From an uncultured cyanobacterium (GTDB lineage Bacteria > Cyanobacteriota > Cyanobacteriia > PCC-6307 > Cyanobiaceae): 64,000 nt of DNA. The stretch's first letter is position 1. Every line of letters begins with the position of its first letter. The notes under the pieces are model-generated. The model did no database searches, was not told the origin of the DNA, and saw only the letters and a program-made list of their open reading frames with translations. The stretch is from positions 1 through 64,000 of the forward strand of contig CAIJRN010000064.1 in the NCBI GenBank assembly GCA_903823115.1, written 5' to 3'. Positions 15,978 to 64,000 of the stretch are shown piece after piece. Made by a program: the position numbers and the translations under genes.

Positions 15978-16356
15978 GGGAATGGGTGCGAAGCTGTTCT
16001 GGTCTGGCTGGCTGATTTGCGCTCGAGCGGCTTCTCCGCTGCCCCTCCATTCATGATGCGGGCTCCGCGCTCCTGGCGGTGCCACTCTCATGCGAATGAC
16101 GACTGCTGCCTGGCAGATTTCGCCACTTCGGCGCCTACCGATGCGCCCATCACCTTTCGCCTTCCCGTCCCATAAGCAAGCCCTTCACGCCACCCACAGC
16201 CGAGCAGGTCGACAGGCTTCTGCCTTCCTACCGGTGTTTCAGCAACGGGATGTCGTCCCCGCCTGTGACCGGCAAGTGCCACATCCCCCGGGTGCTGCAG
16301 CGCCTTGAGGCGACGCACCAATCTGATGACATCAGCACCGAGTCCCTGAGAGCCGG
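15978..16356. other. Gene-free stretch
   Basis: About 380 bases between the MerR promoter and the next gene on the same strand. A short minus-strand frame (16088-16321) exists but has the composition of a chance frame. No hairpin, repeat or RNA gene was recognised. Confidence 0.4.
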
Positions 16357-16758: not shown

Positions 16759-16866
16759 TCTCCTGGCAGGGCTGTGACAAGGTTCGAGATTGGATCTGAT
16801 TGAAAAAGCAGGTCGTCGAATGGAGGCGATCAACACAAACAGCCATTGCCAAACCTCATCCGTTGG

Positions 16867-17214
16867 TCAATCAAACAGACCGCTGCTGCGGTAGGGCCTC
16901 TGCTCCAGCCCCACCAGCCAGCTCTGGACGGGGATATCGGATTCGCCATCCTGATGGTCGCCGCCGCCAGCACCACCGCCGTAGGAAAAACGGCCGCCCT
17001 CATCGTCCTCAGCATGCAAGCCAGGTTCAGGATCAGGCACCAATGCCAGCTTGCTGGTGAGGTTCTCAAAGCCCACTTCGGAGAGGATTCGCTGGAGGCT
17101 CTCGATGTAGCCCTGGTCAAGCCGCACCCGCGTGGGCCAGCGCCGATAACGGGCCCGGAAACCCTCGACAACAAGGAGCAGGCGAACCAGATTGCGATCG
17201 TGTCCGTTGGCCAT
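16867..17214 (-). CDS. Hypothetical protein, 115 aa
   Basis: The N-terminal 60 residues form a compact alpha-beta unit with an RYRRWPTRVRL segment, and a Gly-rich acidic patch (FSYGGGAGGGD) follows before a short aromatic C-terminus. I do not recognise the family. It starts 66 bases after the stop of the 17281-17604 gene on the same strand, suggesting shared transcription. No catalytic residues can be proposed. Confidence 0.5.
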   Translation of the reverse strand: MANGHDRNLVRLLLVVEGFRARYRRWPTRVRLDQGYIESLQRILSEVGFENLTSKLALVPDPEPGLHAEDDEGGRFSYGGGAGGGDHQDGESDIPVQSWLVGLEQRPYRSSGLFD

Positions 17215-17280
17215 GGCAAAAAAGCGAACAGGGAATAACTGTAAAAGTGAAGATCAGTAAAAGCGAAGAACAGGGCCGAA

Positions 17281-17604
17281 TCAGCGATCCTGCTGGCGCT
17301 GGTAGCTCAACATCGCCGACCAGGCCGCCAGCGCAGCGTCATGGTAGGCGTGATCACGGATGGAGTTTTTGAAGTTGGGATAATCGATCCCTTCCACCTG
17401 TTGGTGCAGGACCTCGGCCACACGCTGACGCGGCAGCCAGGCCCGGAAGGCATAATCGGCACCGGCGACCCGGAAGGCCTCAGCCTCGGGGAACACCCGC
17501 TCAAGGTCACCAGAGCGGCGGGCGCGCACCAAGAGCCTCGGGCCGCTGGGGTCATCGCAGTCGGCGACGACGGAGAGAAAGGCATCGCTGAGGAAGATCC
17601 ACAT
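17281..17604 (-). CDS. Hypothetical protein, 107 aa
   Basis: It opens with MWIFLSDAFLSVVA and is followed by a strand-rich core (LLVRARRSGDLERVFPEA) and a helical C-terminus with many Ala and Tyr residues (HAYHDAALAAWSAML). The first 14 residues are hydrophobic but lack a positive charge, so a signal peptide is unlikely. It reads as a small globular protein of a family conserved in bacteria, with no function I can name. It lies between the HIRAN gene and the 16867-17214 gene on the same strand. Confidence 0.55.
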   Translation of the reverse strand: MWIFLSDAFLSVVADCDDPSGPRLLVRARRSGDLERVFPEAEAFRVAGADYAFRAWLPRQRVAEVLHQQVEGIDYPNFKNSIRDHAYHDAALAAWSAMLSYQRQQDR

Positions 17605-17708
17605 GGCGCTGGCTCCGAAAAGACGAATGGGTTGCTGAATCCAGTGTCTCGCGGATCACCCTCTGCGGAGCAACTGTCGTGCGAACAACGACTGCTCGGA
17701 CCGTCTTG

Positions 17709-19328: not shown

Positions 19329-19531
19329 GGGCTGCTGCTAGCTCACTGAAGCCATCTTGCTGGCAAGGGCGTCGGTGCTGAGCGGTGCGCACGGGTTGCG
19401 TCGGGCGCAGCGGCAAACCGCGTCTGTCAAGACAGCTCAGCGGCCTGGCCCAACTAAACTAGGCCACAGACCAGCTTCCGCCGTTCCAGCCACTCAGCTT
19501 CTCAAGACCACCTCTCGTTTCTCCCGCTGCC

Positions 19532-19774
19532 ATGGACTCCTGCATCGGTGCCTTTGAGGCCAAGGCCCAGCTCTCCCGGCTGCTGAGGGCCGTGGAGAAC
19601 GGCGAGCAGTTCACGATCACCGTGCGCGGTCGCCCGGTGGCCGATCTGGTGCCCCACCGCGGGCATTCCGCGCAGAGTCTTGAGGCTGCCGTTCACGCCC
19701 TGCAGGCGTTTCCGCGGATCCAGGACGTTCCTGATCGCGACGTGGCCAGCTTCGTGAGCGAGGGGCGGCGCTAA
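19532..19774 (+). CDS. vapB: Phd/YefM-type antitoxin of a VapBC pair
   Basis: This is an 80-residue antitoxin of the Phd/YefM fold. The AKAQLSRLLRAVENGEQFTI segment followed by RGRPVADLVPH is diagnostic. The C-terminus is the toxin-binding part. It overlaps no other gene and lies 4 bases before the PIN toxin gene, the usual order for a type II system. An interrupted inverted repeat CTGTC-AA-GACAG lies about 100 bases upstream (19424-19435) and could be the autoregulatory operator, though that is not shown. Confidence 0.85.
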   Translation: MDSCIGAFEAKAQLSRLLRAVENGEQFTITVRGRPVADLVPHRGHSAQSLEAAVHALQAFPRIQDVPDRDVASFVSEGRR

Positions 19775-19778
19775 GCGG

Positions 19779-20195
19779 ATGCTGGTGATCGATGCCTCCA
19801 TGGCCCTGGCCTGGGTGTTCGAGCGGCAAAAGTCCGCAGACGCGCAGCGGGCCGCTGATCTGCTCAGCAGCTGCGGCCGTCAACCCTGGTGGGTGCCGTC
19901 CCTGTGGCATCTGGAGGTGGCCAATGCCCTGCTGGTGGCGGAGCGACGCAGTGTGATCGCCAGCAGCGCCAGCGATCTGTTCCGAGCGCGACTCCAGGCC
20001 CTGTCGATCGAGACCGAGGCGACACCCCTGCAGGACAGCGAGCCGAGGATCCTGGCGCTCGCCAGGGCGCAGGGGCTGTCCAGCTACGACGCCACCTACC
20101 TCGAGCTGGCCCAACGGCTTGGCGCCAGCCTGGCCAGTTTCGATCGCAGGCTCAACGAGGCGGCACAACGGCTGGAGGTGGCTCTGGCGCCTTGA
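19779..20195 (+). CDS. vapC: PIN-domain toxin (VapC family)
   Basis: This 138-residue PIN-domain ribonuclease toxin cleaves RNA and is held inactive by the adjacent antitoxin. The acidic triad is visible: D5 in LVIDASMALAWVFE, E in LWHLEVANALL, and D in SSYDATYLELA, with a further D in SFDRRL. Full length for the family. The ATG at 19779 follows the antitoxin stop by 4 bases. Confidence 0.9.
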   Translation: MLVIDASMALAWVFERQKSADAQRAADLLSSCGRQPWWVPSLWHLEVANALLVAERRSVIASSASDLFRARLQALSIETEATPLQDSEPRILALARAQGLSSYDATYLELAQRLGASLASFDRRLNEAAQRLEVALAP

Positions 20196-43870: not shown

Positions 43871-45883
43871 TCAATAGAGCACCGTCCACCCCCTGGAGGT
43901 GGCGACAGCCAGGTCGTAGGTGCTGAGCTCGTTGGTGCCGCTGTTGGAGCCGATGTCGATGCTCTGGTTGCTGCCCACGTAGGCCAGGTTCTGGAAGATC
44001 GTCAGGATCGCCGGCTTCGAGAGGGCGCAGCCCCAGAAGGAGATCGTGGCCGCGATCCCCTGCAGCGGGGCCGAGGCCAGGCCGACACAATTGGAAAAAA
44101 CGCCGTAGAAGTTGCTGACGTTGCCCACCGGCAGGGCCGGCAGGTTGATCAGCCCGTAGCAGCCCGAGAAGGTGTAAGTCATGTTCTGCATCGCCTCGGT
44201 GTTCAGTAGCGGCAGGCTGATCAGGGCGTAGCAGCCGTTGAACATCCCCTCCATCGTCTCCAGGGCCCGCAGATTCAGCCTTGGCAGCCGTGAAAGTGCG
44301 GTGCAGCTGGCGAACATCCAGCGCATCGTCGTCACCTTGCGGGTATCGAACGGTGGAATCGTCTCCAGTGCCTGGCAGCCGGAGAACATACTCTCCATCG
44401 TCGTCACATTCCCCGTGTCGTAGTGCGGCACCTGGCGCAGGGAGGTGCAGCTGGCGAACATCTCGTGCATGTCCACCACCTCGGTGGTGGGGAGTTCGGG
44501 GGCAATCTCCAGGGCGCTGCAGGACTGGAACATGCCGCCCATCTGCTCGATACGCTCGGCGCCACCGATCACCACCTCGCGCAGGCTGCGGCAGTTGGAG
44601 AAGAGGTAGGCGGTGGATTGCAGCGCCTCGGCATCCTCAATCCACACCCGCTCCAGCTCCGGCGCCTCCTGGCAGGCCCACTCCAGACTGGTGAGGGAGG
44701 TGATGCCGGCCAGGCGCAGCTGCTTGAGCAGATTGCAGCCGTAGACCAGATAGGAGGCATCGCTGAGCGAGGCCATCCCTTCCAGGTTCAGCTGGCGCAG
44801 CGAGGTGCACTCATAGAACGCCTCGCTGGCGGTGGTCACATGGGGCAGCGGCGGCAGCTGCACCTGCTCCAATGCGTAGCAGTAGCAGCACATCCCATCC
44901 ATCTCCTCCAGCGCCTCCGCCCGGTGCAGCTGGAACACCCGCAACGCGCCGGCGTAATAGAGCAACCAGCCGAAGTTGCTGGCACCACCGGCATCGTGGA
45001 TGGTGATCCGCTCGACGCTGCCGAGATAGTCGTAGGTGCTGTAGCGCTCGCAGCCGCAGAACACAATGCTGGCGCCCCCTTCTGCGCGGGGAAGGCTCAG
45101 GGCCAGATCCAGCCAGGGCGTGGAGGCATCGTCCTGGCTGATGCTGCTGTGCCGGGGGCTCAGGTCCACCACCGTCAGATTCGCGCCGGGCTGAGGTGTG
45201 ATCGTGACGATCACCTGCCGGTAGCCGCGGCTGCAGCGACTGGCGGCCGACACCGTGTTGTAGCTGTAGCGGTGCTCAGCCTTGATCGGCTCGATCACCG
45301 TCTCGCCCCAGCTCCAGCTGCCGTAGAAGTACGAATAGGCGCCATTCGGCAGCGGTGTGGTGAGCACCAGCTCCACATTGCCGTTGTTCTCCTCGAGCCG
45401 GTACTCGGAGGCCGAGAGGCGATTGCCGTTGCAGTAGACGAGGAACGTGCCCTCGATCCGCTGCTGCCAGCTGGTATTGCTCGCCGCCGTGATCCAGAAC
45501 CGATCGCTGGGGCCATAGAGGCTGTTGCCGAACCACTCCTGATGGCGGCGAATCGTTTCGGCGGGGGAGGTCACGTGCTCCACCGTGCCGTCGCCCCAGT
45601 CGACCGTGTAGTTGCCTGCAGCCCGCACCGCCAGCACGTTGCCTTCCCCGGGATAGACCGCAAAAAGGCCCACCAGCTTCTGCTCCCCTGGCTGGATCGC
45701 CGGCAGCGGCAACCAGTCCACCGGCCGCTGCCAGGGCTCCGCTGCAGAGGGATCCGGCATCGGCGGCTGGCTGCCGTAGGAGATCTGCCAGGCCGGCAAC
45801 GGCAGCGGCGGAGCAGGCACAGCATGAGTAGGCAGAGCCTGAACAGCCGGGGAAGGAGCGATGGAGGAGCTGGTGTGGGCCAT
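43871..45883 (-). CDS. BspA-family leucine-rich-repeat protein (DUF285 repeats)
   Basis: The 670-residue protein has an N-terminal proline-rich and beta-rich half, then about ten DUF285-type repeats from residue 300 on, each with a hydrophobic LxxLP strand and a MxxMFxxC cap (METMFSGC-like, for example MFASCTSLRQVP). BspA proteins are surface adhesins or, in phages, possible receptor-binding parts. No signal peptide is visible, consistent with a virion protein. The ATG at 45883 is used; GTG 45895 adds 4 residues. Last gene of the phage cluster. A receptor-binding role is inference. Confidence 0.75.
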   Translation of the reverse strand: MAHTSSSIAPSPAVQALPTHAVPAPPLPLPAWQISYGSQPPMPDPSAAEPWQRPVDWLPLPAIQPGEQKLVGLFAVYPGEGNVLAVRAAGNYTVDWGDGTVEHVTSPAETIRRHQEWFGNSLYGPSDRFWITAASNTSWQQRIEGTFLVYCNGNRLSASEYRLEENNGNVELVLTTPLPNGAYSYFYGSWSWGETVIEPIKAEHRYSYNTVSAASRCSRGYRQVIVTITPQPGANLTVVDLSPRHSSISQDDASTPWLDLALSLPRAEGGASIVFCGCERYSTYDYLGSVERITIHDAGGASNFGWLLYYAGALRVFQLHRAEALEEMDGMCCYCYALEQVQLPPLPHVTTASEAFYECTSLRQLNLEGMASLSDASYLVYGCNLLKQLRLAGITSLTSLEWACQEAPELERVWIEDAEALQSTAYLFSNCRSLREVVIGGAERIEQMGGMFQSCSALEIAPELPTTEVVDMHEMFASCTSLRQVPHYDTGNVTTMESMFSGCQALETIPPFDTRKVTTMRWMFASCTALSRLPRLNLRALETMEGMFNGCYALISLPLLNTEAMQNMTYTFSGCYGLINLPALPVGNVSNFYGVFSNCVGLASAPLQGIAATISFWGCALSKPAILTIFQNLAYVGSNQSIDIGSNSGTNELSTYDLAVATSRGWTVLY

Positions 45884-45916
45884 GGGGGGAAGCACTCCCC
45901 ACCTATTGCCGCGCCA

Positions 45917-48561: not shown

Positions 48562-49479
48562 TCACGTCAGCGGTGCGATGTTGTGGAGGCGGCCGGCGGC
48601 ACGGGGGTGCATGACGCCGAAACCGACGTACCAGTCGATGCGGGTGCGGAAGACGGGAGCGTCAGGGACTTCACCCAGGTCCCGCACCGAGATGCCGTAG
48701 CGACCCTGGAAAGGGCCCTGCAATCCCGTCACCCCTTGATCACCAAAGGTGCAGCAGTAGATCGAGCTGGTACCGCCGGCTTCTCCGTAGCCGAGCACTT
48801 CCAGGCCCTGGGCGTCGCGGTCGACGGTGAGGATCTGGCACTCCTGGTAGTGATGGACCATCACGCCCAGATTGTTGGTGGAGACGTTGTAGACGCCTTG
48901 ACCAACGGTGGCTCTGGCGAGGGCGTTGAGCTGGCGGCGCATCGCCTTGCTCATCACCAGGTACTTCATGCCGCCATAGGCGTTGACCGAATCGATCAAC
49001 TCATCGAGCTTGTCGAAATCGAGGGCGGTGGCACCGTTGTTGATCGCCATCTCTGCCCCGGGCGGCAAGCGCCGGGCGAGGCCGTCAAAGCCACGGGCCT
49101 GGCTGGCGGTGGCATCGCCGTTGATCAGGGCTGCCTCCAGGGTGAGGCGCATCGAGCGCACTTTCATCTCCACCTGGGAAGCCCGCGCCTCAGGCCCCTG
49201 CAGATCGACGATCGAGCGGTCCACATCGACGTCGCCGCCGAACAGGTGAACGGCTTCTGATTGGGGATCAACGACGCCGTAGCTCTGCTTGTAGCCCTCG
49301 TTCACCGCCCGGAACCCCACCGAGGGAAGTTCTTTTTCGACGGAATAGAACAGGCCGCCGCCGGCGATGTTCATGAACGGCAGCCGCGAGAGCAGTTCCC
49401 CCTCGCTGAAGGTCTTGATCACCGCCAGGTGCTCCAGGCGGCTCTCGTACTTGGCTGCCTCGATCAAGGTGAGGCCCAT
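48562..49479 (-). CDS. Major capsid protein (HK97-fold type)
   Basis: The 305-residue protein has the character of a tailed-phage major capsid protein: an N-terminal helical segment (TLIEAAKYESRLEHLAVIK), the LPFMNIAGGGLFYSVEKELPSVGF strand set, a helix-rich middle, and a C-terminal part around GVYNVSTNNLGVMVHHYQ. The ATG at 49479 is preferred over a GTG at 49485. Its position after the scaffold gene and before a possible decoration protein fits. Family is inferred from pattern and order. Confidence 0.7.
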   Translation of the reverse strand: MGLTLIEAAKYESRLEHLAVIKTFSEGELLSRLPFMNIAGGGLFYSVEKELPSVGFRAVNEGYKQSYGVVDPQSEAVHLFGGDVDVDRSIVDLQGPEARASQVEMKVRSMRLTLEAALINGDATASQARGFDGLARRLPPGAEMAINNGATALDFDKLDELIDSVNAYGGMKYLVMSKAMRRQLNALARATVGQGVYNVSTNNLGVMVHHYQECQILTVDRDAQGLEVLGYGEAGGTSSIYCCTFGDQGVTGLQGPFQGRYGISVRDLGEVPDAPVFRTRIDWYVGFGVMHPRAAGRLHNIAPLT

Positions 49480-49712
49480 CAGCACTCCAGGGGTCTGGCC
49501 CTAGCAACGTCACCAGCTCTTGCCAACCCCTTTGCGGTAGCCAGGTCGGGCCCTGCTGTTGGGGATCAGGGCGGCCATGGAGCTGGGCGAAACCGCCACC
49601 CGCTCTGCCCCGGCTCGGGCGATGCGCCAGGGCTGAACGCGAGTCGCTGCGCGACCCTGGCGCACCCCAGCCAGCGCCGGGGCCTGGTCGGGGTGTCGTT
49701 CGCCAGCCAGCC

Positions 49713-52431: not shown

Positions 52432-53316
52432 TCAGGGGCGGCGGGAGGGGGTGCGGCCGTTGACGGCAAAGGCGGCGCGGTAGATCTCGGAGGCGCTCAT
52501 CGCTTGGGGGTTGAGCGGTTCGCCGTTACTGCCGATGCCGGAGACGGTGACACCGCCGGCGGCCTGCATGCCGGTGGGGCCGCGCTGCTGGAACAGGAAG
52601 CCGTAGACGGGGTGCACCCGCATCTCATCGAGGAAATCGCCGGTGGTGAGGGGGCGGCCGTCATCACCGAGCAGGGGTTTGCCCTGGCCATCGAGCGGTT
52701 CGAGCACGTCCTTGCCGTCCTTGTCGGTGCCGAGGCGGAAGCAACTGCCCAACTGCCCCTTGAAGATGTCAAAGAAGGTCCCCCGCCGATCGCCGCCGGT
52801 GCGGCCCTCGGCCTGGGAGAAGGCGCGCTCCAGCAGGCGGTCCTTGCGCAGTTGCAGCACCTGACCGCGGGCATCGTCCCGTTCGGCGGCGACAGCGGCG
52901 ACCCTCTGGGCGGAGGCCTCCTCCATCTGACGTTCGCGCAGCTCCATGCGCTCCTCGAGCACCTGCTTCTGGCGCTCCGCTTCTTGCAGGCGGGAGTATT
53001 CCTCGGGGTTGATTTCCGAGAAGCGGTTCAGCTGCTGCCGCAGAGTGCGGATTTCTTTTTCCAGCTGGTTGTTCTTGCGGCGCTCGGCCTTGAGCGGATC
53101 GGCGGACCGACTGTCGTCGGTTCCGATGTCGCTGGGGGGCGTTGCTGAAGCCGGAGGCTGGGAGGCCGCAGGCGGATCACTGGGGAGGTTGTCACCGCCC
53201 TGGGGATCAGCACCGCCATCGGCGCTCTGGCTTGCGGCGTAGTTGTCGTCAGCGCCCTGGCCGTTGCTGGCTGCGGAGCTGGTGCTGGAAGGGGGAGCAG
53301 AGGTGGCAGTGGCCAT
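52432..53316 (-). CDS. Scaffolding-like phage protein
   Basis: The 294-residue protein has a disordered Ser/Ala/Pro/Asp-rich first 75 residues, a strong coiled coil at about 75-165 (Glu/Arg/Gln heptads), and a C-terminal folded part (FFDIFKGQLGSCFRLG, LDEMRVHPVYGFLF). Long coiled coil plus acidic N-terminus just upstream of the capsid gene is the usual arrangement of a head scaffold. No protease motif is seen. Function inferred from shape and position. Confidence 0.65.
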   Translation of the reverse strand: MATATSAPPSSTSSAASNGQGADDNYAASQSADGGADPQGGDNLPSDPPAASQPPASATPPSDIGTDDSRSADPLKAERRKNNQLEKEIRTLRQQLNRFSEINPEEYSRLQEAERQKQVLEERMELRERQMEEASAQRVAAVAAERDDARGQVLQLRKDRLLERAFSQAEGRTGGDRRGTFFDIFKGQLGSCFRLGTDKDGKDVLEPLDGQGKPLLGDDGRPLTTGDFLDEMRVHPVYGFLFQQRGPTGMQAAGGVTVSGIGSNGEPLNPQAMSASEIYRAAFAVNGRTPSRRP

Positions 53317-53697: not shown

Positions 53698-53913
53698 ATG
53701 AGCAGCCGCATCACCCACAACCCCGATCAGTGCGGCGGCAGGCCGTGCATCCGCGGCATGAGGATCCGCGTGCAGGACATCCTGGAGCTCTATGCCGCCG
53801 GGCAAAGCAGCGAGCAGATCCTGGCCGACTTCCCTGATCTGGAAGCGGAGGACCTGAAAGCCGCCTTGGCCTATGCAGCACGGGAGATCGACCACCCCGT
53901 TCTGGTGGGATGA
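53698..53913 (+). CDS. DUF433 antitoxin
   Basis: The 71-residue protein has the full DUF433 pattern: ITHNPDQCGGRPCIRGMRI, VQDILELYAAGQSSEQIL, DFPDLEAEDLKAALAYAAREI. DUF433 proteins are DNA-binding antitoxins paired with DUF5615 PIN-like toxins. The next gene is that partner, overlapping by 4 bases (ATGA), which confirms the pair. Confidence 0.92.
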   Translation: MSSRITHNPDQCGGRPCIRGMRIRVQDILELYAAGQSSEQILADFPDLEAEDLKAALAYAAREIDHPVLVG

Positions 53914-54266
53914 CGCTCTGGCTGGATGCCCAGCTGCCGCCGCAGCTGGCCGAGTGGATCAACGCGCAGGGGTGGGGAATCCAAGCAGTCGCGGTGCGTG
54001 ATGTCGGATTGCGCGATGCGAGTGATCCGGTGATCTTTCAGGCAGCACGGTCGGCAAGCGCGGTGGTGATGACCAAAGACCGCGACTTCATCCGCCTGCT
54101 GGAGGAGCAGGGTCCGCCTCCGCAGGTGATCTGGCTGCGTCTGGGGAACTGCAGCAACGCTGCGCTGCAGGAGGTTCTGTCGACCACCTTGACCCGTGCG
54201 GTGGCGCATCTGAGCGACGGCGAGCCCTGGGTAGAGATTCGCCCGAGTCAGACAGGAGCGGACTGA
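53910..54266 (+). CDS. DUF5615 PIN-like toxin
   Basis: The 118-residue PIN-like protein has the active-site acid in LWLDAQLPPQLAEW and the TKDRDF motif in VVMTKDRDFIRLL, typical of DUF5615. It presumably degrades RNA unless bound by the overlapping DUF433 antitoxin. The pair is read against the phage structural genes and converges on the LysM-HTH gene with 19 bases between stops. Confidence 0.9.
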   Translation: MTLWLDAQLPPQLAEWINAQGWGIQAVAVRDVGLRDASDPVIFQAARSASAVVMTKDRDFIRLLEEQGPPPQVIWLRLGNCSNAALQEVLSTTLTRAVAHLSDGEPWVEIRPSQTGAD

Positions 54267-54285: not shown

Positions 54286-55218
54286 TCACGAATGCGACAG
54301 CTCGATCTGCCGCGCCAGCCAGTCCTCCACGTCGGCGGCGGCATAACGGATCAGCCCGCCCAGCTGGATCGGCGTGGGGCCATAGCCAGCAGCGGCCCAG
54401 TTCTCGAGGGTGGCGACCGTGATGCTCAGGTGAGAGGCCAGGGCCTCGGGGGTATAGAGCGGCGAGGCCATCAACGCCGTGCTGCTGGCGGCGACGGTTG
54501 AGGTGGTCCCTGTCGTCGTGGTGATGCGGCGCCGCGGAATGAACAGCCAGCTCCCCACCGGTAGCGGGTCAGCCGCTCCAAGCAGCAGCTCCGGGTTCAA
54601 GGTGCGCAGCACCGCCACGCTGGTGCCATGCCGTTCGGCCAGCACCAGCAAGGTGTCGCCAGGGACGATGACCACGACCCGGTTGGGTTTGAACGAGGCC
54701 TCGATCCGCTCCCCCAGCAGTGGCTGGGTCAAGGAGCCGATCCCGCCGGGGCCGTAGAGACCGCCGAACTCCAGCACGGAGAAGGCGGCGAACTGGGCGC
54801 GATTGGCCGGAGGGAGAGAGCCGGGGCTGGTGAGGGTGGAGAGGTCCCCGAGCCAGATGGCCCCACTGCAGGGCGTCAATAAGGTGCCGCCATCAGCCAG
54901 CAGGGGCCGCTGCCCCACAGTCGACCAGGCGATCTCCCGCTCCAGCCAGTCCCAGGGATCGCTGGACTGGAGTGGCAGCAAAGCGCCGCGTGTCAAAAAC
55001 CCCTCGTAGGTGAAGTCGCCGGTGTCGACGCCAGGGGAGTTTTCCTTGGAGGAGATCTGCCGCAGTCGCTTGAGGAACGCCTCGAAGAGAAACCGACCGA
55101 TGCGGGGGGATTCGAGCACCCCTGGAACCTGATTGGCGAACAGCAGGATGCGGGCGTTGGCGTAGCGATCCAGCGGTGTCCTGCCAGCTGCTGTTGCGGG
55201 GATGGAGAAAGGCGCCAT
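54286..55218 (-). CDS. Fusion of an N-terminal phage domain, a LysM domain and an excisionase-like HTH
   Basis: The 310-residue protein has three parts. Residues 1-175 are an unassigned phage-type domain (NARILLFANQVPGV, RIGRFLFEAFLKRL, FAAFSVLEFGGLYGPGG). Residues 179-228 are a LysM domain (VIVPGDTLLVLAERHGTSV then LNPELLLG and VGSWLFIP), which binds peptidoglycan or chitin-like glycans. Residues 255-303 are an excisionase-type helix-turn-helix (LYTPEALASHL, LENWAAAGYGPTPI, IRYAAADVEDWL). The combination of wall-binding and DNA-binding modules is odd in one chain. It is placed directly upstream of the DUF433/DUF5615 pair on the opposite strand. Confidence 0.7.
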   Translation of the reverse strand: MAPFSIPATAAGRTPLDRYANARILLFANQVPGVLESPRIGRFLFEAFLKRLRQISSKENSPGVDTGDFTYEGFLTRGALLPLQSSDPWDWLEREIAWSTVGQRPLLADGGTLLTPCSGAIWLGDLSTLTSPGSLPPANRAQFAAFSVLEFGGLYGPGGIGSLTQPLLGERIEASFKPNRVVVIVPGDTLLVLAERHGTSVAVLRTLNPELLLGAADPLPVGSWLFIPRRRITTTTGTTSTVAASSTALMASPLYTPEALASHLSITVATLENWAAAGYGPTPIQLGGLIRYAAADVEDWLARQIELSHS

Positions 55219-55221
55219 CGC

Positions 55222-55731
55222 TCAGCCCCGGGCCATCGCCACCTGGAACGGGCTGCCGCCGCTGCCTGTTCCCAGCAGTGGATCGCGGCTCCAGATCGCC
55301 AGTGAGGGCAGCATCAGCAGCAGAGCCTGGCCATGGCTGGCGCGCTGCCTGCGGAGGAGCAGATCCAGGGGCGCGGGCTGCTGAAAGCGCGTCACCACCT
55401 CTTCTCGCAGCAGGTCGGTGGCGTACTCGATCACGTCGGCCTTGCTAACCGGCAGTTCCCCATCAGCCCCGATGGCCCCGGCGACGGCGGCATTGCGGCG
55501 CACCTCGATCGGCGCCTGCAACTGCTCGGGGGTCAGGTCGGCGAGCTGCTGATCGATCAAGGCGATCGCCGACAGTTCGGCCTGGGCCGAGGGGATCGCA
55601 GCAGGATGGGTCTGCAGCAGGCCAGCCATGGCAGCGGCGATGGCCTCCAGCGCCTGAAGCTGCACCGGAATCGAGAGGGCCCGCCGGATCGCCTCGAGAT
55701 CGTCCGGCTGCCAGGCGGGGGTGGGGGTCAT
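55222..55731 (-). CDS. Phage-cluster helical protein coupled to the portal gene
   Basis: The 169-residue protein is helical with an alanine-rich N-terminal half (LEAIAAAMAGLLQTH) and a second half resembling a head-completion protein (SKADVIEYATDLLREEVVTRF). Its ATG overlaps the portal stop in an ATGA arrangement, showing translational coupling. Probable head assembly role, not proven. Confidence 0.6.
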   Translation of the reverse strand: MTPTPAWQPDDLEAIRRALSIPVQLQALEAIAAAMAGLLQTHPAAIPSAQAELSAIALIDQQLADLTPEQLQAPIEVRRNAAVAGAIGADGELPVSKADVIEYATDLLREEVVTRFQQPAPLDLLLRRQRASHGQALLLMLPSLAIWSRDPLLGTGSGGSPFQVAMARG

Positions 55732-57317
55732 GCCCCCTGTTGCCGCCGGCGTCTGGCCCGGGCTGGCGATCTGGCCTCCGTGGTCTGCGACGCACCATCA
55801 TCCGCCGGGGGTTCAGAGGCCGGAGGAGCTGGCTCCGAGTGCATCCCTGCCACCGGCACCTGCAGCGACGGAGAGGACAGCGACTGCGCCGTGGCCAGCG
55901 TCAGCTGGTGCCGCAGCTCCTCACGGGTGATGACGCCCCGGTCGTAGAGCTCGATCCACTCGCCCACCTTGGGCTGGGCCTGGATCGGCGGCGCCAGTGG
56001 GCTCACCGACACCTGCAGGCCGGCGCCGGGATCGAGGGTTTCGCCGGTGAGGGAGACCCAGTGCTCCAGCAGGGTGGAGAACAGCGAGGCCTTCTGGATC
56101 GCCAGGGATTGGAGCAGCGCGTAGCTCTGGCTGGCCGTCAGGCTGATCTCCAGCTCAGTGCGGGCTGCGCCGCCACTGCTGCTGGGGATCAGGGCATCGC
56201 GGCGCATGGTCTCATCGAGGCTCTGCAGCCAGGCCCGGTGCTCAGCCAGGGAACGCGCTCGGATCTCCACGAACTCGAAGGACGCATCCGCCGGCAGGTC
56301 CATGCAGGTGTTTGGGCCCAGCACCACAGGGCCGGCGGTGCTGTTGCCAAGGGTGTCGACCATCCCCATGCGCACGCCCACCGGCAGGGCTGTGCGGGAG
56401 AGGAGTTCCTCGTACTCGCTCTTGCAACGGAAGTGGTTGAGGTACTGATAGGCCAGGCCCAGGTGCGGCAGGTCCCCATCCCCGAAGGCCGAGCCATCGG
56501 AGGTGTACCAGCAGGCCGGCAGGCGGGTCAGGCCTGGATAGCGGGTGGAGGTGGGCGGATCACAACGCCAGCCGCTGGGCTCGCTCGGGTCGGCCGTCAC
56601 CGGATGCAGGCACACCTCCATGCCCGTGGCCTGACCCTCGGCCTCGGTGAGTTGCAGGCTCCGGTAGATCCAGTGGTCAGGCGCATCGGCATCACCGAGC
56701 AGCGAAGCGATCTGCTCCCGCACCGCCGCCTCAGTGCCAGGCGGCACTGGCTGGATGCCCTGGTGCTGGGGTTCCCGCCAATGGATCCGGCTCGGCAGCC
56801 CATGGCTGGAGGGGAGCGCCCAGTTCAGAGCATCGGCCCGGGGCACCAGCTGCAGCCGGGGCAACGACAGCCGATCGCCGCGGCGCAGGGCCTCCTGCCG
56901 GTCGCCCTCGCTGGGCCAGCTGTGCTCGGGGGGCAGCACCAGCACCAGGGCTGCGCCGTCCCGCAGGACGAGCAGGTCTGCCGAGGCCAGGAACACCCCC
57001 AGGTCCGTGCCCCGGCCATCCACATCGGTCAGCACCGACGCCAAGTTGCTCGGCAGGTTCAGCCAGCTGCCCCGGCTGAGCATTCCGGCGTAGGTGCGCA
57101 GGGCGTCTCGGAAGAAGCCCGAGGGTCGGGCGGCGGCCAGTCGGCGTTCGTAGGCGCCCTGGGGCTCCCGCTCACCCTGGGGCAGGTACACCTGCCTCCT
57201 GCTGCTGCCGTCAGGGGCGGAGAGCAGGTTCCAGCAGTCGGCGGCGATCTGCAGGGAGGGTTGGAGGGCGATCAGGCTGGGGTACTGGCTCCATGGGGCA
57301 GAGGGGGCTGGATGCAC
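55728..57317 (-). CDS. Portal-like protein (DUF4055 type)
   Basis: The 529-residue protein has the look of DUF4055 portal-like proteins: an N-terminal YLPQGEREPQGAYERRL segment, then FRDALRTYAGMLSRG, a long central alpha-beta part including YLNHFRCKSEYEELL, and a helical C-terminus with the typical ALLQSLAIQKASLFSTLLEHW. Length is normal for portals. Starts at GTG 57317. First structural gene after the inserted island; terminase and sigma-like genes precede the island. Confidence 0.7.
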   Translation of the reverse strand: MHPAPSAPWSQYPSLIALQPSLQIAADCWNLLSAPDGSSRRQVYLPQGEREPQGAYERRLAAARPSGFFRDALRTYAGMLSRGSWLNLPSNLASVLTDVDGRGTDLGVFLASADLLVLRDGAALVLVLPPEHSWPSEGDRQEALRRGDRLSLPRLQLVPRADALNWALPSSHGLPSRIHWREPQHQGIQPVPPGTEAAVREQIASLLGDADAPDHWIYRSLQLTEAEGQATGMEVCLHPVTADPSEPSGWRCDPPTSTRYPGLTRLPACWYTSDGSAFGDGDLPHLGLAYQYLNHFRCKSEYEELLSRTALPVGVRMGMVDTLGNSTAGPVVLGPNTCMDLPADASFEFVEIRARSLAEHRAWLQSLDETMRRDALIPSSSGGAARTELEISLTASQSYALLQSLAIQKASLFSTLLEHWVSLTGETLDPGAGLQVSVSPLAPPIQAQPKVGEWIELYDRGVITREELRHQLTLATAQSLSSPSLQVPVAGMHSEPAPPASEPPADDGASQTTEARSPARARRRRQQGA

Positions 57318-57572
57318 GCGCAGCGGACCGGACTATCTGCTTTTGCCACCAAGGTTGTTCAGGCTTGTGTAGCAGGGCGAACGAGTGGTTCTCAGACCCG
57401 TCAACTATGGCTATTGATGAAGGAGCCAGTCGACGGGTCCTTGTCTGCGCGGAAGTTTCAGCCCTCGGTCTCGTCACAGCCGAAGTCGTTCTCGGAAACG
57501 ATTGGAGCGGGTTCCGTGGTTCCCGGTACTCGCGAAGAATGAGTTAGCCCGCAGACAATGCCAGGATGAGTC

Positions 57573-58265
57573 ATGACAAAATCCCTCACCAATGCCGAGC
57601 TTGAGCACCTACTCAATTTCATCGGATACGGAGACCTAGATGCCTGTGCTTGGTTTCTGGGTATGGAAGAAGCTGGCGGCGGCGAAGCCAATATCCTTAC
57701 ACGACTAAAATTCAGGCGGGTAGAAGATTGTGTTGAAGCCCATGCTCTGCTTGGCATGACAAAACATCATTCCGGCAAGAAGGTCATTCAGCCAACCTGG
57801 CGCGGCATGTGCTATATAATGCTACGACTTGAAGGAGTGCAGCCAAGCACAGAAAATATTCGCGATTACCAGGCCAATCATCTTGGGCGGCTTCACAATT
57901 CATCGCTTTTATGTGAGTTGATGCCCATTCCCAAGCCAAGCGTAGCCAGCTGGGGCTACGAAGAACTCATTCCTCAGTTTACTTCACGCGACGAATACTA
58001 CCACGCCATTAAACCTCGCCGCATTGAGTTTCTTCGGCAAGTCTTACAAGAGCATCGCCCTAGAATTGTGATCGGCTACGGCAAGAACTATTGGCCTGAC
58101 TATAAGGAGTTGTTTTTAGGAGAGACATTTGCAATAGAGGGCCAGTTTGCCGTTTCGAGAGGCCAGGCTGGAGTCGTAGTGCTGACAGATCACTTTACAG
58201 CAAGATCAATGAATGGAAAACTTGACGAAATCGTTGAGATAGTCAGGGATTATTCCTTAAGATAG
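57573..58265 (+). CDS. Possible uracil-DNA-glycosylase-fold protein
   Basis: The 230-residue protein is tentatively assigned to the UDG fold. A CAWFLGMEEAGGG loop occupies the position of motif 1, ILRLEG-type helices and LLCELMPIPKPS follow, then RIVIGYGKNYWPDY as the central strand and VVVLTDHFTARSMNG near the end where motif 2 (HPS) is expected. The replaced motif 2 means that either the activity or the assignment could be wrong. AT-richer than the phage genes around it, it begins the inserted island at 57.5 kb. Confidence 0.45.
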   Translation: MTKSLTNAELEHLLNFIGYGDLDACAWFLGMEEAGGGEANILTRLKFRRVEDCVEAHALLGMTKHHSGKKVIQPTWRGMCYIMLRLEGVQPSTENIRDYQANHLGRLHNSSLLCELMPIPKPSVASWGYEELIPQFTSRDEYYHAIKPRRIEFLRQVLQEHRPRIVIGYGKNYWPDYKELFLGETFAIEGQFAVSRGQAGVVVLTDHFTARSMNGKLDEIVEIVRDYSLR

Positions 58266-58397
58266 CCTGCGGGCTAACTTGCGGATCCAGTTGCAACGCT
58301 GGGGGACCTATTGGTTGACTACATGAATTCAGTGCATTTTGCATTCAATCCTGTAAGATGCATTTGCCAATATGCTCTCGCTGACTGATTTACCTTC

Positions 58398-59168
58398 ATG
58401 GCCCGTCGCTGCCCTCAATGCAATAGCAAGTTGATAAGGCATGATCGAAGCCTTGGCGGCAGGGCAGTCTGCGGCGCCTGTGGAAGGGTATTAACCACTC
58501 AGGCTTCCAGGACAGCAGCACACCGACCAGCATCAAAAGGGAAATTAGGTAGAGATTGGAAAAATAGCAAAACCCTATTTGCATGGCTTCTGCCGACAAG
58601 TCTCATTGGCAGCTATCTTTTCATGTGGGCTAATCCAAGAGCCTTGACGACCTGGACCGCTCCCTATAGTGCATCAACGAGAAATAGTTGGCAAATCAGA
58701 ACTCCTGCAGATATCGAGCTTCTGATTGGCAAGGCGCAACAAGATTCCGAAAAGCCCAGCACTCCGCCCGATGAACGTGTAATCAGGGAAATTGCGAACA
58801 AGTTGACCACAAAAGGAGTTCATATCTTAATCTCGGATAGTGTAACCCCAAATGCAGGCGGGGAGTGGGATCCGAGCCGGGGTGAGTTAAGGATTCGTCC
58901 ATCCACTGTCTCAATGGGTACTTCCACTTTGGCGCAGGCATTAGCTCATGAGTCAGCCCACGTAGCTCAGTCCTGCCGAGCTGGGGGACTCGGCAGAAAT
59001 AGTGAGCCGATGGGAATCCAGGTGGATCCAGCAAGAACTTATCAACAGCAGCTGAGTTCATCACTGTACAAAGGTCCGCCATCAACCAAGGCAATTGAAC
59101 TGGAAGCCTACTCTGTCGGTGCCATACCAGAATGGGCCCCTAAGTTGCTTGATCACTACTGCAGGTGA
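58398..59168 (+). CDS. Zinc-ribbon membrane metalloprotease-like protein
   Basis: The 256-residue protein has a zinc ribbon at the N-terminus (C5, C8, C25, C28), one membrane segment at about 59-77, and a C-terminal domain with the HESAH zinc-protease motif (residues 184-188) inside an ALAHESAHVAQSC helix. A later ELEAYS segment may supply the third ligand. The arrangement suggests a membrane-anchored protease on one side and a zinc ribbon on the other. Substrate unknown. It is in the AT-richer island, 132 bases after the possible UDG gene. Confidence 0.7.
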   Translation: MARRCPQCNSKLIRHDRSLGGRAVCGACGRVLTTQASRTAAHRPASKGKLGRDWKNSKTLFAWLLPTSLIGSYLFMWANPRALTTWTAPYSASTRNSWQIRTPADIELLIGKAQQDSEKPSTPPDERVIREIANKLTTKGVHILISDSVTPNAGGEWDPSRGELRIRPSTVSMGTSTLAQALAHESAHVAQSCRAGGLGRNSEPMGIQVDPARTYQQQLSSSLYKGPPSTKAIELEAYSVGAIPEWAPKLLDHYCR

Positions 59169-59321
59169 TGACTGCTGCGATGCCCAAGTGGGCTCAAGTG
59201 TTGGGACGGTTCACTGATAGCCGTACTGATAGGCAAGAATGGCAAATGCGTATGGCCAAGACTTAAGGAAACAATGGAAAACCCAGCCCCACCTGCGCGA
59301 AATAGGCCTGTGATTGCAGGT

Positions 59322-59509
59322 ATGGACTGGGTTGATGGGGGCAAGCAGCTTGGCTATGGTGATTACGAGCAAACCACGGCCAAACAGCGCACAAATCGCG
59401 AGCGATTTCTGGCGGAGAAGGGGCCGTTGTGCCATGGAAGGCGCTGATCGATCTGATCGAGCCCCACTACCCCAAAACCAGCTCCAAAGGCGGGCAAGAG
59501 AGCAAATAG
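59322..59509 (+). pseudogene. IS5-family transposase N-terminal fragment, frameshifted
   Basis: The sequence encodes the start of an IS5-type transposase in two frames. One frame reads to RTNRERFLAEKG, and the next frame continues VVPWKALIDLIEPHYPK and ends at TAG 59507-59509. A single shift separates the two parts. The catalytic DDE part is missing, so it is an insertion-sequence relic. It marks the inserted island. Confidence 0.8.
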
Positions 59510-60155
59510 AGCCAAATCTGTTGGCATTGCGCTGGCATCTCATTACGTGAGCTGGCACTTAACATGAATTACCAACCATCCACGACGCGTATTTCGACAT
59601 ATCAATAGAGGCGAGCGGTGGAGACGAGGGCAGGGTTGTTCTCGCGAGTGAGTTGACGAGTGACAGGCAAGCCGTCTATACAGCAACAAGGGCGAAAATC
59701 CATGCCAGAAACAGCAAGTCAAGCGCGACAACTATGCGATCATCTTCAGATAGCATATCACCATCCGAATAGGAGACAAGGGCTTGAAAGTCGCGCACAC
59801 ATTGCCAAGTTCAGCATAATCATTACTGGCGCGGCATACCATGGCGGAGCGGCCTTAATGTCTTCCTTCCATATGGGAGCATTTAGCATCCTAATGCATC
59901 CAGCCAGTGTGCAGCTTCCAACTTAGATCACTCTTGATATTCTCTGACCGCCAATACTTGAGGGCACCTGCGCCTATCGAGAGATGGGGAGTTGTCATGC
60001 AAGCAACAGCGATAAGGCAGATGGATGCCTTCAGAATCTATCCCGGCGCTGAGTCGCACAGCCTCGAATGCACTCTCAGCGTGTCGTCTCGGGACTGGAG
60101 CCTCGACGATGTAGTATGTAGGCGTCCAAATATGTTCCATGTTGAATAGTCGGCG

Positions 60156-60518
60156 ATGACCTCCTACATTGAGCCCAATTTTGACCTTTCCCTGAAAATT
60201 TCGGAGAGAGATTTTCACCACATTTCAGGCATTGCATTTGACACCTTTGTCGCCTTTTCCAGCGAGCAAGCGAATGAACCTTGCATGCTAATTATTCCCC
60301 AAACCAATATATTCCCAGACAGCGCGAAAGAGGCATCGGCTTGGCTTTGGTTCTTATCTGAGGAATCCCAGGATATACCTGTAGGGACGAAGATCATCAT
60401 TACTCTCGAGAAGACATGTGACCCAATGCATACGCCTGAGGAATGCACCGCAATGGCCTTATACAACGGCTTGACAATTGAAGGGACGGTAACGAGGATC
60501 TGGGATGCTGATGAATGA
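60156..60518 (+). CDS. Hypothetical protein, 120 aa
   Basis: The protein has about equal helix and strand (FDLSLKISERDFHHISGIAF, PCMLIIPQTNIF, GTKIIITLEK) and several aromatic and acidic residues. It is AT-richer than the phage genes. The ATG at 60156 is used. A decayed piece of the sigma-like gene follows downstream on the other strand. I do not recognise the family. Confidence 0.5.
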   Translation: MTSYIEPNFDLSLKISERDFHHISGIAFDTFVAFSSEQANEPCMLIIPQTNIFPDSAKEASAWLWFLSEESQDIPVGTKIIITLEKTCDPMHTPEECTAMALYNGLTIEGTVTRIWDADE

Positions 60519-60548
60519 CTAGCACCAAGGACTCACTTCCTCGCCCAC

Positions 60549-60620
60549 CTAAAGCGCCAGCATCCGCTGACTACAAGCCAGCACAATCTTCCATCGACCG
60601 CTGAGTAGTCAACTCCAGCG
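60549..60620 (-). pseudogene. Decayed duplicate of the 3' end of the sigma-like gene
   Basis: On the minus strand this stretch resembles the end of the sigma-like gene at 62819-62874, including the codons for an IVxACSQR peptide and the following stop region. About three quarters of bases match, with one gap. It is in the same orientation as the intact gene and separated from it by the HNH and 62246 genes, so the sigma 3' end flanks this module on both sides. Confidence 0.65.
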
Positions 60621-61016
60621 TCTGATCAGCCGAGATTAGCAAATAGACGGCCTGTCAGACGTTCCGACATTTGTTCGTCAAGCACCTACTGGAGCAGGGG
60701 ATACATCAGCTCGATTCCTAGATTACTCGTCCACAATAATGTGAAAACCAAGTTCCAAACATTAGCAATCTACTTAAGCTTATCGGCATCATGACGCCCC
60801 GCTGACCAGCCTTGGGATTCGCAGAGTTATTCTACGGATCGTGTAACAATCCGTGATCCAGGTGGTGCCTCCCATGAATCTAGGCAATGAACCATATAGC
60901 AAGTCTGCGGACGATGGCACAATCGATGGCCCATGCAGTATGTGTGGCTAATCACCAGCTTCTGCAGACCGCCGAAAACCGGTTAGCTTTCACGGAGTCC
61001 TGGACGGGAAGTCAAC

Positions 61017-62120
61017 ATGCCCCACATCGATCCTTACCTGTTTCAGCAGCAGTTCGAAGCGTTTAAGATTTTCGTTGCAGAACAATCCAGTATTGCTTTT
61101 TTGTCTTTTGCGTCGAATCCGTATACCGAGGGACAAGAGGGCTACAAGTACGAAATTCACCATGCGGGCCGAGCAGCACTCGCGTTTCAAGATTGGAAGC
61201 AATCCGACGTTGGAAGCGGCGACATAACTGAAGCAGTAATTGGGGCCATTGAAATACCCAATAGCAATCTTGTGCCATGGCAGGCGCGGTTCGGCAAGGC
61301 AGCTCGTCCACACCAGCCACTCTATGAAACTAGGAACCAAAAAGACAAGTTGCAAAAAATCGAGGTATGTCTATTCGAGCTCTTTCACGAACAACAAGAC
61401 GAAAAGTCCTTTGCCAAGTTAGTCGCCATTTTCGGGAAGACCTACCCACTTCTGGCCTACTTGTTTTTCCTTAAGGACCGATCAAAGTATCTTCCAATTG
61501 CGCCTACCTTCTTTGATCGGGCTTTCAAGCATTTGGGCGCAAACTTCAAGACCAGTCATCGGTGCTCATGGGAAAACTACTCAACCTATATAAGCCTTAT
61601 CGCCGAACTCAAAGCTATGCTTACAGAGAGCCTTGCAGGTGAAGTGACCTTGCTTGACGCTCACTCATTCGCATGGATGCTGGCGGCGCAGATGGAGAAC
61701 AAGCTCGCCGATGTTCAGGCATATCTAAGCCTTTCATCCACAGAACGCGAAGCCATTGTCAAAGCTCGCGTTGGCCAAGGCAGATTCCGTGAAAGTTTAA
61801 TCGACTACTGGTCATCCTGCGCAGTGACAGGTTGCGCAGAAGCGGCTCTGCTTCGTGCCTCTCACATCAAACCATGGGCCAAGGCCGGGCTGGAGGAGCG
61901 GCTAAGTCTGTACAATGGACTTTTGTTGTCTCCAGCACTTGATGCGTGCTTCGACTCCGGATATATCAGTTTTGACGATGAAGGAAGGATAATAACATCC
62001 AAGCTACTCACGGCGGATGACGCAAGCGCCTTAGGCATTCATTCCGATATGTGCTTAAGGAGAGTAGAACTAGAGCACAAGAGGTATTTAGCATTCCACC
62101 GAGAGCACGTTTTCAAGTGA
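61017..62120 (+). CDS. HNH endonuclease (HNH_2 type)
   Basis: The 367-residue protein has an N-terminal 250-residue part of unknown fold, probably a specificity or effector part, and a C-terminal HNH_2 domain: GQGRFRESLIDYWSSCAVTGC, then LLRASHIKPWAKA and NGLLLSPALDACFDSGYISF. Cys pairs and the His-Asn-His chain are in place. It resembles modification-dependent or homing-type endonucleases. It lies between the intact sigma-like gene and a decayed duplicate of its 3' end, an arrangement seen with homing elements. No signal peptide. Confidence 0.8.
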   Translation: MPHIDPYLFQQQFEAFKIFVAEQSSIAFLSFASNPYTEGQEGYKYEIHHAGRAALAFQDWKQSDVGSGDITEAVIGAIEIPNSNLVPWQARFGKAARPHQPLYETRNQKDKLQKIEVCLFELFHEQQDEKSFAKLVAIFGKTYPLLAYLFFLKDRSKYLPIAPTFFDRAFKHLGANFKTSHRCSWENYSTYISLIAELKAMLTESLAGEVTLLDAHSFAWMLAAQMENKLADVQAYLSLSSTEREAIVKARVGQGRFRESLIDYWSSCAVTGCAEAALLRASHIKPWAKAGLEERLSLYNGLLLSPALDACFDSGYISFDDEGRIITSKLLTADDASALGIHSDMCLRRVELEHKRYLAFHREHVFK

Positions 62121-62245
62121 AAGCCAGCACATCACTATCGCTGTAGCCGTCGCTATGCGGCGTTAGGCTAAGCTCTGAAGTTCGACATCCCAAGCCCAAT
62201 AGTCTCCGGCCTAGACTTCTAAACCGACCTGACCAACCAACCAAA

Positions 62246-62692
62246 ATGCCCTGCTATAGCGCCTGGTACGAGTTTTTGAAGCCGGACTCGCCAGAATATA
62301 GAGAGACAAAGGCCCGCGTCGAAGCGAAGCTCAGCTCGGTTCAGCATATCGTCGATTATTACTACTCTACCCACAATTTCAAGTTACCTGAGCTGCCGAG
62401 AGGAACAGATATCGACCCATTCCGCCAGCCACGCTCCAAGGCAGAACTGAAGCTGAGAGAGATGATCTGCCATCACTTCGCTTGCGACGGAGTCAATTTT
62501 TGCACGCTCTATGACGTATGCACCCTCTTATCCGAGCAGGACGATGAGCAGCGTTCATACCTTGCAGTAATCATGCCTTGCGCAACACTGATGAGACAAG
62601 ACAAAGAAAAATACCCTTCAAATTGGTCAAAGAATGGAAATGCCTTGAAAGAGAGTGGCGATGCCTGGTTCCCAGCTCAAGTAAAAACCTAG
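62246..62692 (+). CDS. Hypothetical protein next to the HNH gene
   Basis: The 148-residue protein has several Cys and Tyr residues (HHFACDGVNFCTLYDVC) that could bind a metal. It begins 125 bases after the HNH stop on the same strand. Family not recognised. Composition is similar to the HNH gene, so it is probably part of the same insertion. Confidence 0.5.
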   Translation: MPCYSAWYEFLKPDSPEYRETKARVEAKLSSVQHIVDYYYSTHNFKLPELPRGTDIDPFRQPRSKAELKLREMICHHFACDGVNFCTLYDVCTLLSEQDDEQRSYLAVIMPCATLMRQDKEKYPSNWSKNGNALKESGDAWFPAQVKT

Positions 62693-62785
62693 CCGCTGCC
62701 AAATGGGTTCGATCTGGATGTATGCGGTATATTTTCTCCAACCCAGCCTAGGTGACCTGCCGTCGTCACCTGCTTGGGTCGGATG

Positions 62786-63409
62786 TCAAATATCCTCCCC
62801 TACGTCCATCGCCACCACCCGCTGACTACAGGCCTCCACAATCTCCCGCCACCGCTCCACACTCAACCCCAGCCGCACCGGCACATCCGCCGCCTCCACC
62901 CCCAACCGCATCAACTTCAGCCCACGAGCATGCAGCTCCCGCCAGCTGGCCGGCACCTTGATCAGGAAGCCCTTATCCCGCAAGAAGTGATAGACCTCGC
63001 CGTTCGCATAGGTGCGGGCATAAGGGCGGAACTGTCCACGTTCGGGGGAATAGCGGCGGGAGGCCTCGATGATGCCCATCATCGCGATCTGCCTCAGGTC
63101 TTCGATCGGATGGCCTGTGCGGCGTGAGAGGTTGGCGGCCACCTTGTCGGCGATGTCCAGGTGCTGCATCGCCAGCTCATTGGCGGCGCTGTGGCAATGC
63201 CTGGGCTTCTGCCGCCTGCGGCGCAGCACCCTGGGTGGTGGCGGGAAGGCCAGCACCAGCTGCACAGCGCTGTTGATCCCTGGCTTGGGTTTGTGACGCC
63301 TCGGTGGTGTGGGCCGGTGCCAGAGGGGTAGCAGCAGCTGAGCTTGCGACTCGCTTCCCACCAGCAGATCGCCGTGGAAGCGTGTTGGCCTTTGCAGGGT
63401 CGTCGTCAT
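62786..63409 (-). CDS. Sigma-70-like factor in the phage cluster
   Basis: The 207-residue protein has a basic N-terminus (residues 1-75) and then a sigma-70 region 2-like segment: VAANLSRRTGHPIEDLRQIAMMGIIEASRRYSPERGQFRPYARTYANGE, followed by FLRDKGFLIKVPASWRE. It could direct RNA polymerase to phage promoters. Region 4 is not evident, but a short helical C-terminus is present. The ATG at 63409 lies 3 bases after the terminase stop. An internal ATG before MQHLDIAD would make a shorter form. Confidence 0.7.
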   Translation of the reverse strand: MTTTLQRPTRFHGDLLVGSESQAQLLLPLWHRPTPPRRHKPKPGINSAVQLVLAFPPPPRVLRRRRQKPRHCHSAANELAMQHLDIADKVAANLSRRTGHPIEDLRQIAMMGIIEASRRYSPERGQFRPYARTYANGEVYHFLRDKGFLIKVPASWRELHARGLKLMRLGVEAADVPVRLGLSVERWREIVEACSQRVVAMDVGEDI

Positions 63410-63412: not shown

Positions 63413-64000
63413 TCAGCGGGAGAACACCATCGGCACCGGCGCTTGGCTGCTGCCTCGGCCACGCCAGTACCTCTGCTCGATCCACAGCACTCCCTGGCAG
63501 AAGGCATCCACCTGGTCGTCGATGCCGCCGCGGGTCGAGAAGGCGAGCATCTCCTCGATCAGGGAGTCGGAACGGCGGTGGAAGCGCACTTGGCCGGCTT
63601 CCACCAACGGGGCGACGGCATGAGCACGGGAGGCCTTGCTGCCCTTGGGCGGAATGGCGATCAGGCCCGGCACCTGGCGCCTGAGTAGCTGGCAGACGGC
63701 CGGGCCATTAGCGGCGTCCTCAATCAGCACCGCATCGGGCCGCAGGCCCTGCCGCTCCAGCGAGGCCAAAGAGGCCAGCAGGAAGCGGATCACCCCCGGC
63801 AGGTCCAGCTTCTGGCGGTGGGCCCAGAGCACCTCGATCTGCAGCTCCGCCCACGGGTCGGGGGCATTCGGTCCATCACATGAGTGTTGCCCGGGTCGCT
63901 GAGCACCAGCGGCGTTAGTGGCCAGCACCAGGCCCTTCCGCCGTGCCTCCACCGCCAGGTGGCGCTGGGGCTCCAGCAAGCCCAACAGGGCAAAGCCGCA
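63413..64000 (-). CDS. Terminase large subunit, C-terminal nuclease part (cut by window edge)
   Basis: The frame stays open to the window end, so the gene is partial at its N-terminus. The visible part is the RNase-H-like nuclease domain of a tailed-phage terminase: VLIEDAANGPAVCQLL, AIPPKGSKASRAHAVAP, and GGIDDQVDAFCQGVL with its acidic active-site residues. The first about 60 visible residues are less typical. The gene ends 3 bases before the sigma-like gene. It packages phage DNA into heads. Confidence 0.75.
   Translation of the reverse strand, partial: CGFALLGLLEPQRHLAVEARRKGLVLATNAAGAQRPGQHSCDGPNAPDPWAELQIEVLWAHRQKLDLPGVIRFLLASLASLERQGLRPDAVLIEDAANGPAVCQLLRRQVPGLIAIPPKGSKASRAHAVAPLVEAGQVRFHRRSDSLIEEMLAFSTRGGIDDQVDAFCQGVLWIEQRYWRGRGSSQAPVPMVFSR

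Follow-up and report, generated by a model that had tools for sequence, protein, structure and literature searches.

The 310-aa protein encoded on the reverse strand at positions 54286-55218 of the window (the whole stretch of 64,000 nucleotides of cyanobacterial DNA analysed here) is probably a head-completion protein, of the type that forms the stopper of phage necks, and belongs to a capsid-encoding integrative element with heads of the S-CBS2/PSS2 lineage. Elements of this family are phage-like, occur in freshwater Cyanobium-type cyanobacteria and seem to lack tail genes. In this reading the core is a neck protein, formed by the N-terminal half, to which the LysM domain and the winged helix-turn-helix (HTH) were added as modules at the C-terminal end. 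The original prediction had described a LysM and an excisionase-like HTH in one protein of a phage cluster. Both domains are indeed present in a single intact ORF, as supported by Pfam and PHROGs matches and by an AlphaFold model; the 180-residue N-terminal domain, which is the defining part of the protein, had been overlooked. Stopper proteins themselves are already known, and what would be new is one that carries such unusual C-terminal modules. No paper on a LysM and HTH attached to a neck protein, or on this family of elements, was found in the literature accessible without subscription.

The ORF begins with ATG, has no internal stop and starts 3 nt past the end of the preceding gene. It is part of an operon-like run, behind the genes for the portal and a 169-aa protein and ahead of the scaffold gene (Table 1). 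The HTH_17 match (residues 254-304) scores 29.6 bits, above the 27-bit cut-off, and PHROGs assigns residues 241-304 to phrog_66 (excisionase and transcriptional regulator) with an E-value of 4.5e-8. The modelled region from about residue 250 to 310 aligns to excisionases and to BldC with Z-scores of 6.5-8.2. The LysM match (residues 183-225) reaches 18.9 bits, slightly below its 20.9-bit cut-off. The LysM motif GDT-L-xx-[IL]A is present in the protein as PGDTLLVLAERHGTSV, residues 179-231 of the AlphaFold model align to solved LysM domains mostly at 1.1-2.2 A rmsd, and relatives with several LysM repeats match the Pfam family at E 3e-16 to 2e-20. Given the multi-repeat relatives and the structural alignment, the sub-cut-off LysM is judged genuine on sequence and model, and both folds named in the original prediction, LysM and winged helix, are evident in the predicted structure.

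Table 1. Parts of the 310-aa protein and neighbouring genes of the element, with the basis of each assignment.
Feature	Position in the window	Strand	Basis
N-terminal domain, stopper-like neck domain (residues 1-180)	54679..55218	-	AF2 model; structural neighbours; stand-alone homologues preceding Neck1 genes
LysM domain (residues 181-228)	54535..54678	-	Pfam E 0.0015; Z 7-8 against solved LysM structures; class B/C relatives with three LysM
Ser/Thr/Ala-rich disordered linker (residues 229-252)	54463..54534	-	pLDDT <50 at residues 232-252 of the AlphaFold model; most variable part
Winged-HTH domain, HTH_17/excisionase type (residues 253-308)	54295..54462	-	Pfam E 8.6e-7; Z 8.2 to GIsul2 excisionase; purifying selection; few basic residues
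169-aa protein, candidate adaptor	55222..55731	-	Always between portal and stopper gene; synteny in 29 loci
Portal protein (DUF4055)	55728..57317	-	phrog_145 E 2.9e-27
Head scaffolding protein	52432..53316	-	phrog_206 E 6.9e-17
Major capsid protein	48562..49485	-	phrog_212 E 4e-68; Pfam GP7
Sigma-70 region-2 protein, directly downstream of TerL	62786..63409	-	Pfam Sigma70_r2 E 2.5e-11
Terminase large subunit (TerL), C-terminal part	63413..64000	-	phrog_38 E 8e-66; gene extends beyond the window and is truncated where the contig ends (64795)
DUF433 + DUF5615 (PIN-like) toxin-antitoxin-like pair	53698..54266	+	Pfam E 3.4e-27 and 8.5e-26

A search for the same architecture found the three-part protein (N-terminal domain, LysM and HTH) in at least 15 other loci. 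It is open in 14 genome places, the window's own genome counted, and occurs in most of 11 matches from further genome contigs and in at least six viral contigs (IMG/VR). The window's own genome holds a second copy, 62% identical and of the same architecture, and among genomes of the genus up to five three-part copies are found in one (G020). The element's stopper gene reaches five or more copies, plus fragments, in both G020 and G455. Broken copies with stops, or with split or truncated genes, are also seen, as expected for integrated elements. Mean pN/pS, taken within groups of copies that have the HTH, amounts to 0.14-0.18 in the N-terminal domain, 0.14-0.21 in LysM, 0.23-0.38 in the linker and 0.07-0.19 in the HTH. 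The HTH is thus maintained by selection and, at 0.07 in the larger group, is the most conserved part of the protein there. The recurrence of the architecture together with the low pN/pS shows that it is due neither to chance nor to a sequencing error. An artefact joining two neighbouring genes, in favour of which there is nothing beyond the unusual architecture, is refuted by the same arrangement in isolates, MAGs and viral contigs and by selection across the joint region.

Relatives form a series of three architectures. The first consists of the N-terminal domain alone (166-225 aa); the second adds two to three LysM repeats and has no HTH (roughly 330-470 aa); the third, which includes the window's protein, combines the N-terminal domain with one LysM and the HTH. 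In the third type the motif SWLFIP[RK]RR is followed by the short disordered linker and then the HTH, and in some of the second a similar motif closes the LysM array. Since the N-terminal protein occurs in relatives without LysM or HTH, or with three LysM and no HTH, the HTH is an extra module, and the earlier suggestion that the protein might be a fusion is supported in this form. A tree separates the architecture classes far better than shuffled labels, and it is compatible with the HTH having been gained either once or twice. Among sequenced phages, the search for close relatives returned only HTH-only or LysM-only matches. A strict link between the gain of LysM and the loss of the tail was considered and dropped because the element in G438 has an N-domain-only stopper and no recognised tail genes.

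The N-terminal domain modelled alone (AF2, 44 sequences) has a pLDDT of 85.6 and a pTM of 0.83. Most of the solved structures closest to this model are phage neck and stopper proteins, with Z-scores of 5.3-6.2: 9lbn_J (Z 6.2, 109 residues aligned, 3.6 A), 8hdr_A (6.2), 9rks_O (5.7), 6tba_3A from RcGTA (5.6), 8zdj_M (5.5) and 7z4w_1, the SPP1 gp6/gp15/gp16 connector (5.3). The neck proteins among these neighbours include those of phiXacJX1, Pam3, Agrobacterium phage 7-7-1, phage 812, RcGTA, Douge and SPP1. Z-scores in this range are modest, and those of PilZ-type barrels are hardly lower (Z 4-5.6). The domain gave no match at E <0.001 in Foldseek and nothing convincing in a sequence search of the PDB. 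The protein appears to resemble the neck proteins of SPP1 (gp16), RcGTA and Pam3 in the predicted beta-rich fold of this domain and is like them in its near-portal position, and differs from phage stoppers in its added C-terminal LysM and winged HTH and in having no sequence similarity detectable in the PDB. The fold alone would not decide the identity of the domain, and gene order is the stronger argument.

In its tailed relatives (viral contigs L155 and L156 and phage S-CBS2) the N-domain gene lies between the portal/adaptor and tail-completion genes, directly before a tail-completion/Neck1 gene, which is followed by a tail protein and the tape measure; known stopper and head-completion genes have the same neighbour. 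The order in L156 is TerL, sigma factor, portal, minor head protein, basic protein, helical 167-aa protein, N-domain protein and Neck1-like protein, with the tail tube and a terminator-like protein further on (the labels minor head, basic and helical come from inspection by eye). Phage S-CBS2 has gp013 (167 aa, 'unknown structural protein') ahead of gp014, a member of the Neck1 family (phrog_5, E 1.2e-8), beyond which lie the terminator-like gp018, tail protein gp019 and tape measure gp021. When the ORFs of nine phage loci were searched with a profile of the N-terminal domain, the two best matches, at weak E-values of about 0.004-0.009, were gp013 (about 0.009) and a 131-aa gene adjoining Neck1 in a tailed prophage that lies on contig C45 of the genome from which the window comes. 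To judge from its rank in this search and from gene order, gp013 appears to carry the same domain; unlike the 310-aa protein it is only 167 aa long, lacks LysM and HTH and belongs to a phage with tail protein and tape measure genes. In the window the portal and 169-aa genes precede the 310-aa protein, no tail-completion gene is recognised, and the order portal, 169-aa protein, 310-aa-type protein and scaffold is kept across the family. The 169-aa protein has no convincing family match in Pfam or PHROGs and, from its position, may be the adaptor. Mainly on gene order, we infer that the N-terminal domain occupies the stopper position of the neck. It would form a ring beneath portal and adaptor that retains the packaged DNA and presents a docking face for whatever comes next, and the C-terminal LysM, with the winged helix fused behind it, would project from this ring as accessory modules.

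The main alternative is a tube initiator or hub protein like Cis7 of contractile systems or Mu gp43, in which a tube-like barrel is followed by LysM; the particle would then have a short hub seated immediately on its neck. For the whole protein the best Foldseek match is a LysM-bearing baseplate protein of a contractile system, hence a hub and not a neck component (9gtp_M, E 1.2e-5), and 7b5h_AK and 7aeb_M are also found. LysM is documented as a structural module on hub proteins and tube initiators in Mu (gp43), Milano, A-1(L) and R2 pyocin (PMC11915804). The Foldseek match is, however, not significant with the N-terminal domain alone, for which neck proteins lead the structural alignment. Tube initiators of this kind share with the 310-aa protein the arrangement of a beta-barrel-like domain followed by LysM and sit at the baseplate hub, whereas here the gene is in the head module, adjoining portal and scaffold, no baseplate genes are recognised, and homologues precede Neck1 instead of following the tape measure. 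A hub is therefore unlikely. As LysM is a known structural module of phage hubs, wall binding need not be its role in the stopper-type protein either, where its likeliest function would be structural or in contacting glycans.

The winged helix could alternatively make the protein a regulator of transcription or packaging, the free protein binding a promoter or packaging site of the element and so coupling head completion to expression. The HTH_17 assignment by Pfam and PHROGs is clear, the purifying selection on the domain is strong, and its fold is shared with excisionases and with lambda gpNu1; the likeness to BldC extends to sequence (E 0.0036). However, the basic DNA-contact positions of the BldC/excisionase type are mostly replaced. 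The helix-wing region, with a net charge of -1 to -4, holds one Lys/Arg in the window's protein and two or three in other copies, against eight in the DNA-binding BldC. Since other HTH_17 proteins in these genomes have as few as two Lys/Arg in this region, this count does no more than lower the probability of DNA binding, which for the 310-aa protein is doubtful on sequence. The element also carries a separate, free-standing HTH_17 gene close to the integrase, and the search beside the gene for the 310-aa protein gave no DNA motif confined to copies with the HTH, all of which makes such a regulator rather improbable. In the neck, the winged helix would more likely contact protein, or DNA with low specificity, than act as a classical operator binder. 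If it does touch DNA, the neck would be the place where the end of the packaged genome is held.

Three further roles for the HTH were considered. A substitute small terminase, suggested by a weak phrog_57 match and the likeness to gpNu1, is weakened by a conserved gene of about 180 aa (c8, without a family match) that lies immediately before TerL whether or not a copy has the HTH. The excisionase of the element is a role weakened by the separate HTH_17 gene near the integrase. As to a DNA target beside the gene, the only conserved block is a hairpin-like stretch, GAGCACAGCCCGGAYGGGGTGCTC, before the scaffold start, which is present in copies with and without the HTH (L044, L047, L052, L057 and others); its consensus is degenerate in the window. 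The original prediction had proposed that the protein tethers DNA to cell-wall material, because LysM and HTH share one chain, and this is now very improbable given the virion-type N-terminal domain, the poorly charged HTH, the many relatives without it and the sequence read by eye, in which no signal peptide, membrane segment or other export signal was evident.

In genome G029 the host element is a class A copy of about 31 kb or more, in which a tyrosine integrase adjoins tRNA-Gly and is accompanied by an HTH_17 gene, Bro-N, helicase, primase and exonuclease. It continues with TerL, a sigma-like protein, portal, the 169-aa protein, stopper-LysM-HTH, scaffold and capsid, after which come small genes without assignment, a gene for a collagen-like fibre and three more conserved proteins. 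The copy in the window is truncated by the end of the contig, and its integrase side lies outside the contig. No convincing att repeats were found for the elements of G029, G355, G415 and G438, nor a second copy of the adjacent tRNA end in the stretches examined, and the element ends are thus not fixed. Queries with Neck1, tail tube, terminator and tape-measure proteins found no match in seven elements, the window included; the same queries match between the tailed relatives L155, L156 and S-CBS2 at E 1e-14 to 1e-51 and give clear matches in the same-genus tailed prophages L246 and L247. Tail genes thus appear to be absent as far as sequence search can tell, and several unassigned conserved proteins of the elements (128-435 aa) could include divergent tail proteins.

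The G029 element joins an integrase to its own capsid and packaging genes, a combination expected of capsid-forming satellites. Capsid-forming satellites such as cf-PICI and MulchRoom/MiniFlayer have been described (PMC10690885), and like them the element has integrase, terminase, portal, connector, scaffold and capsid and no recognisable tail genes. Unlike them, it is about 31 kb or more in size, its head is related to that of a cyano-siphovirus, and its dependence on a helper is hypothetical. A tentative extension of the stopper reading is that these are capsid-forming satellites without tails, of which some Cyanobium-type genomes hold several copies. They would derive from a cyano-siphovirus head module, and the LysM and winged-helix extensions of their stopper would take the place of the tail interface or modify it, for instance by capturing a helper's tail or as a minimal host-contact device; we hold this as possible rather than probable. 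A possible helper is the tailed prophage of contig C45 (L246, positions 1-20000), which belongs to the same genome as the window. It is siphovirus-like, with portal-like, Neck1-like, tail-protein-like and terminator-like genes and a 744-aa tape-measure candidate.

A wall-type domain and a winged helix on a neck protein would show how phage connector proteins gain new surfaces. If the elements are tail-less satellites, capsid-forming satellites would extend to picocyanobacteria, and stopper-LysM-HTH would be a natural place for a borrowed tail to be chosen. Sequenced Cyanobium strains that carry the element include Cruz CV13-4-11 (L032) and Cruz-8D1 (L039).

The capsid is 93-97% identical between class A/B copies whose stoppers are often about 60% identical; synonymous differences in the capsid are high (pS about 0.4), which points to strong purifying selection and not to recent exchange. 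In nearly all copies, as well as in L156 among the tailed relatives, the sigma-70 region-2 gene immediately follows TerL. The DUF433/DUF5615 pair is inserted on the opposite strand between the 310-aa and scaffold genes, and the same pair is found at this spot in L051, L061 and L062; elsewhere the spot holds a Phd/PIN-like insert (L161, L162) or a small Hli-like ORF (L043), as read by eye. A second insertion spot, between the sigma-factor and portal genes (57318-62785), contains genes that differ per copy and lie mostly on the opposite strand, possibly as cargo: an HNH_2 protein in the window (61017-62120) and, read by eye, large helicase-like or ATPase-like proteins elsewhere. At 43871-45895, approximately where other copies have the collagen-like fibre gene, the window encodes a 674-aa protein with DUF285/LRR_5 repeats.
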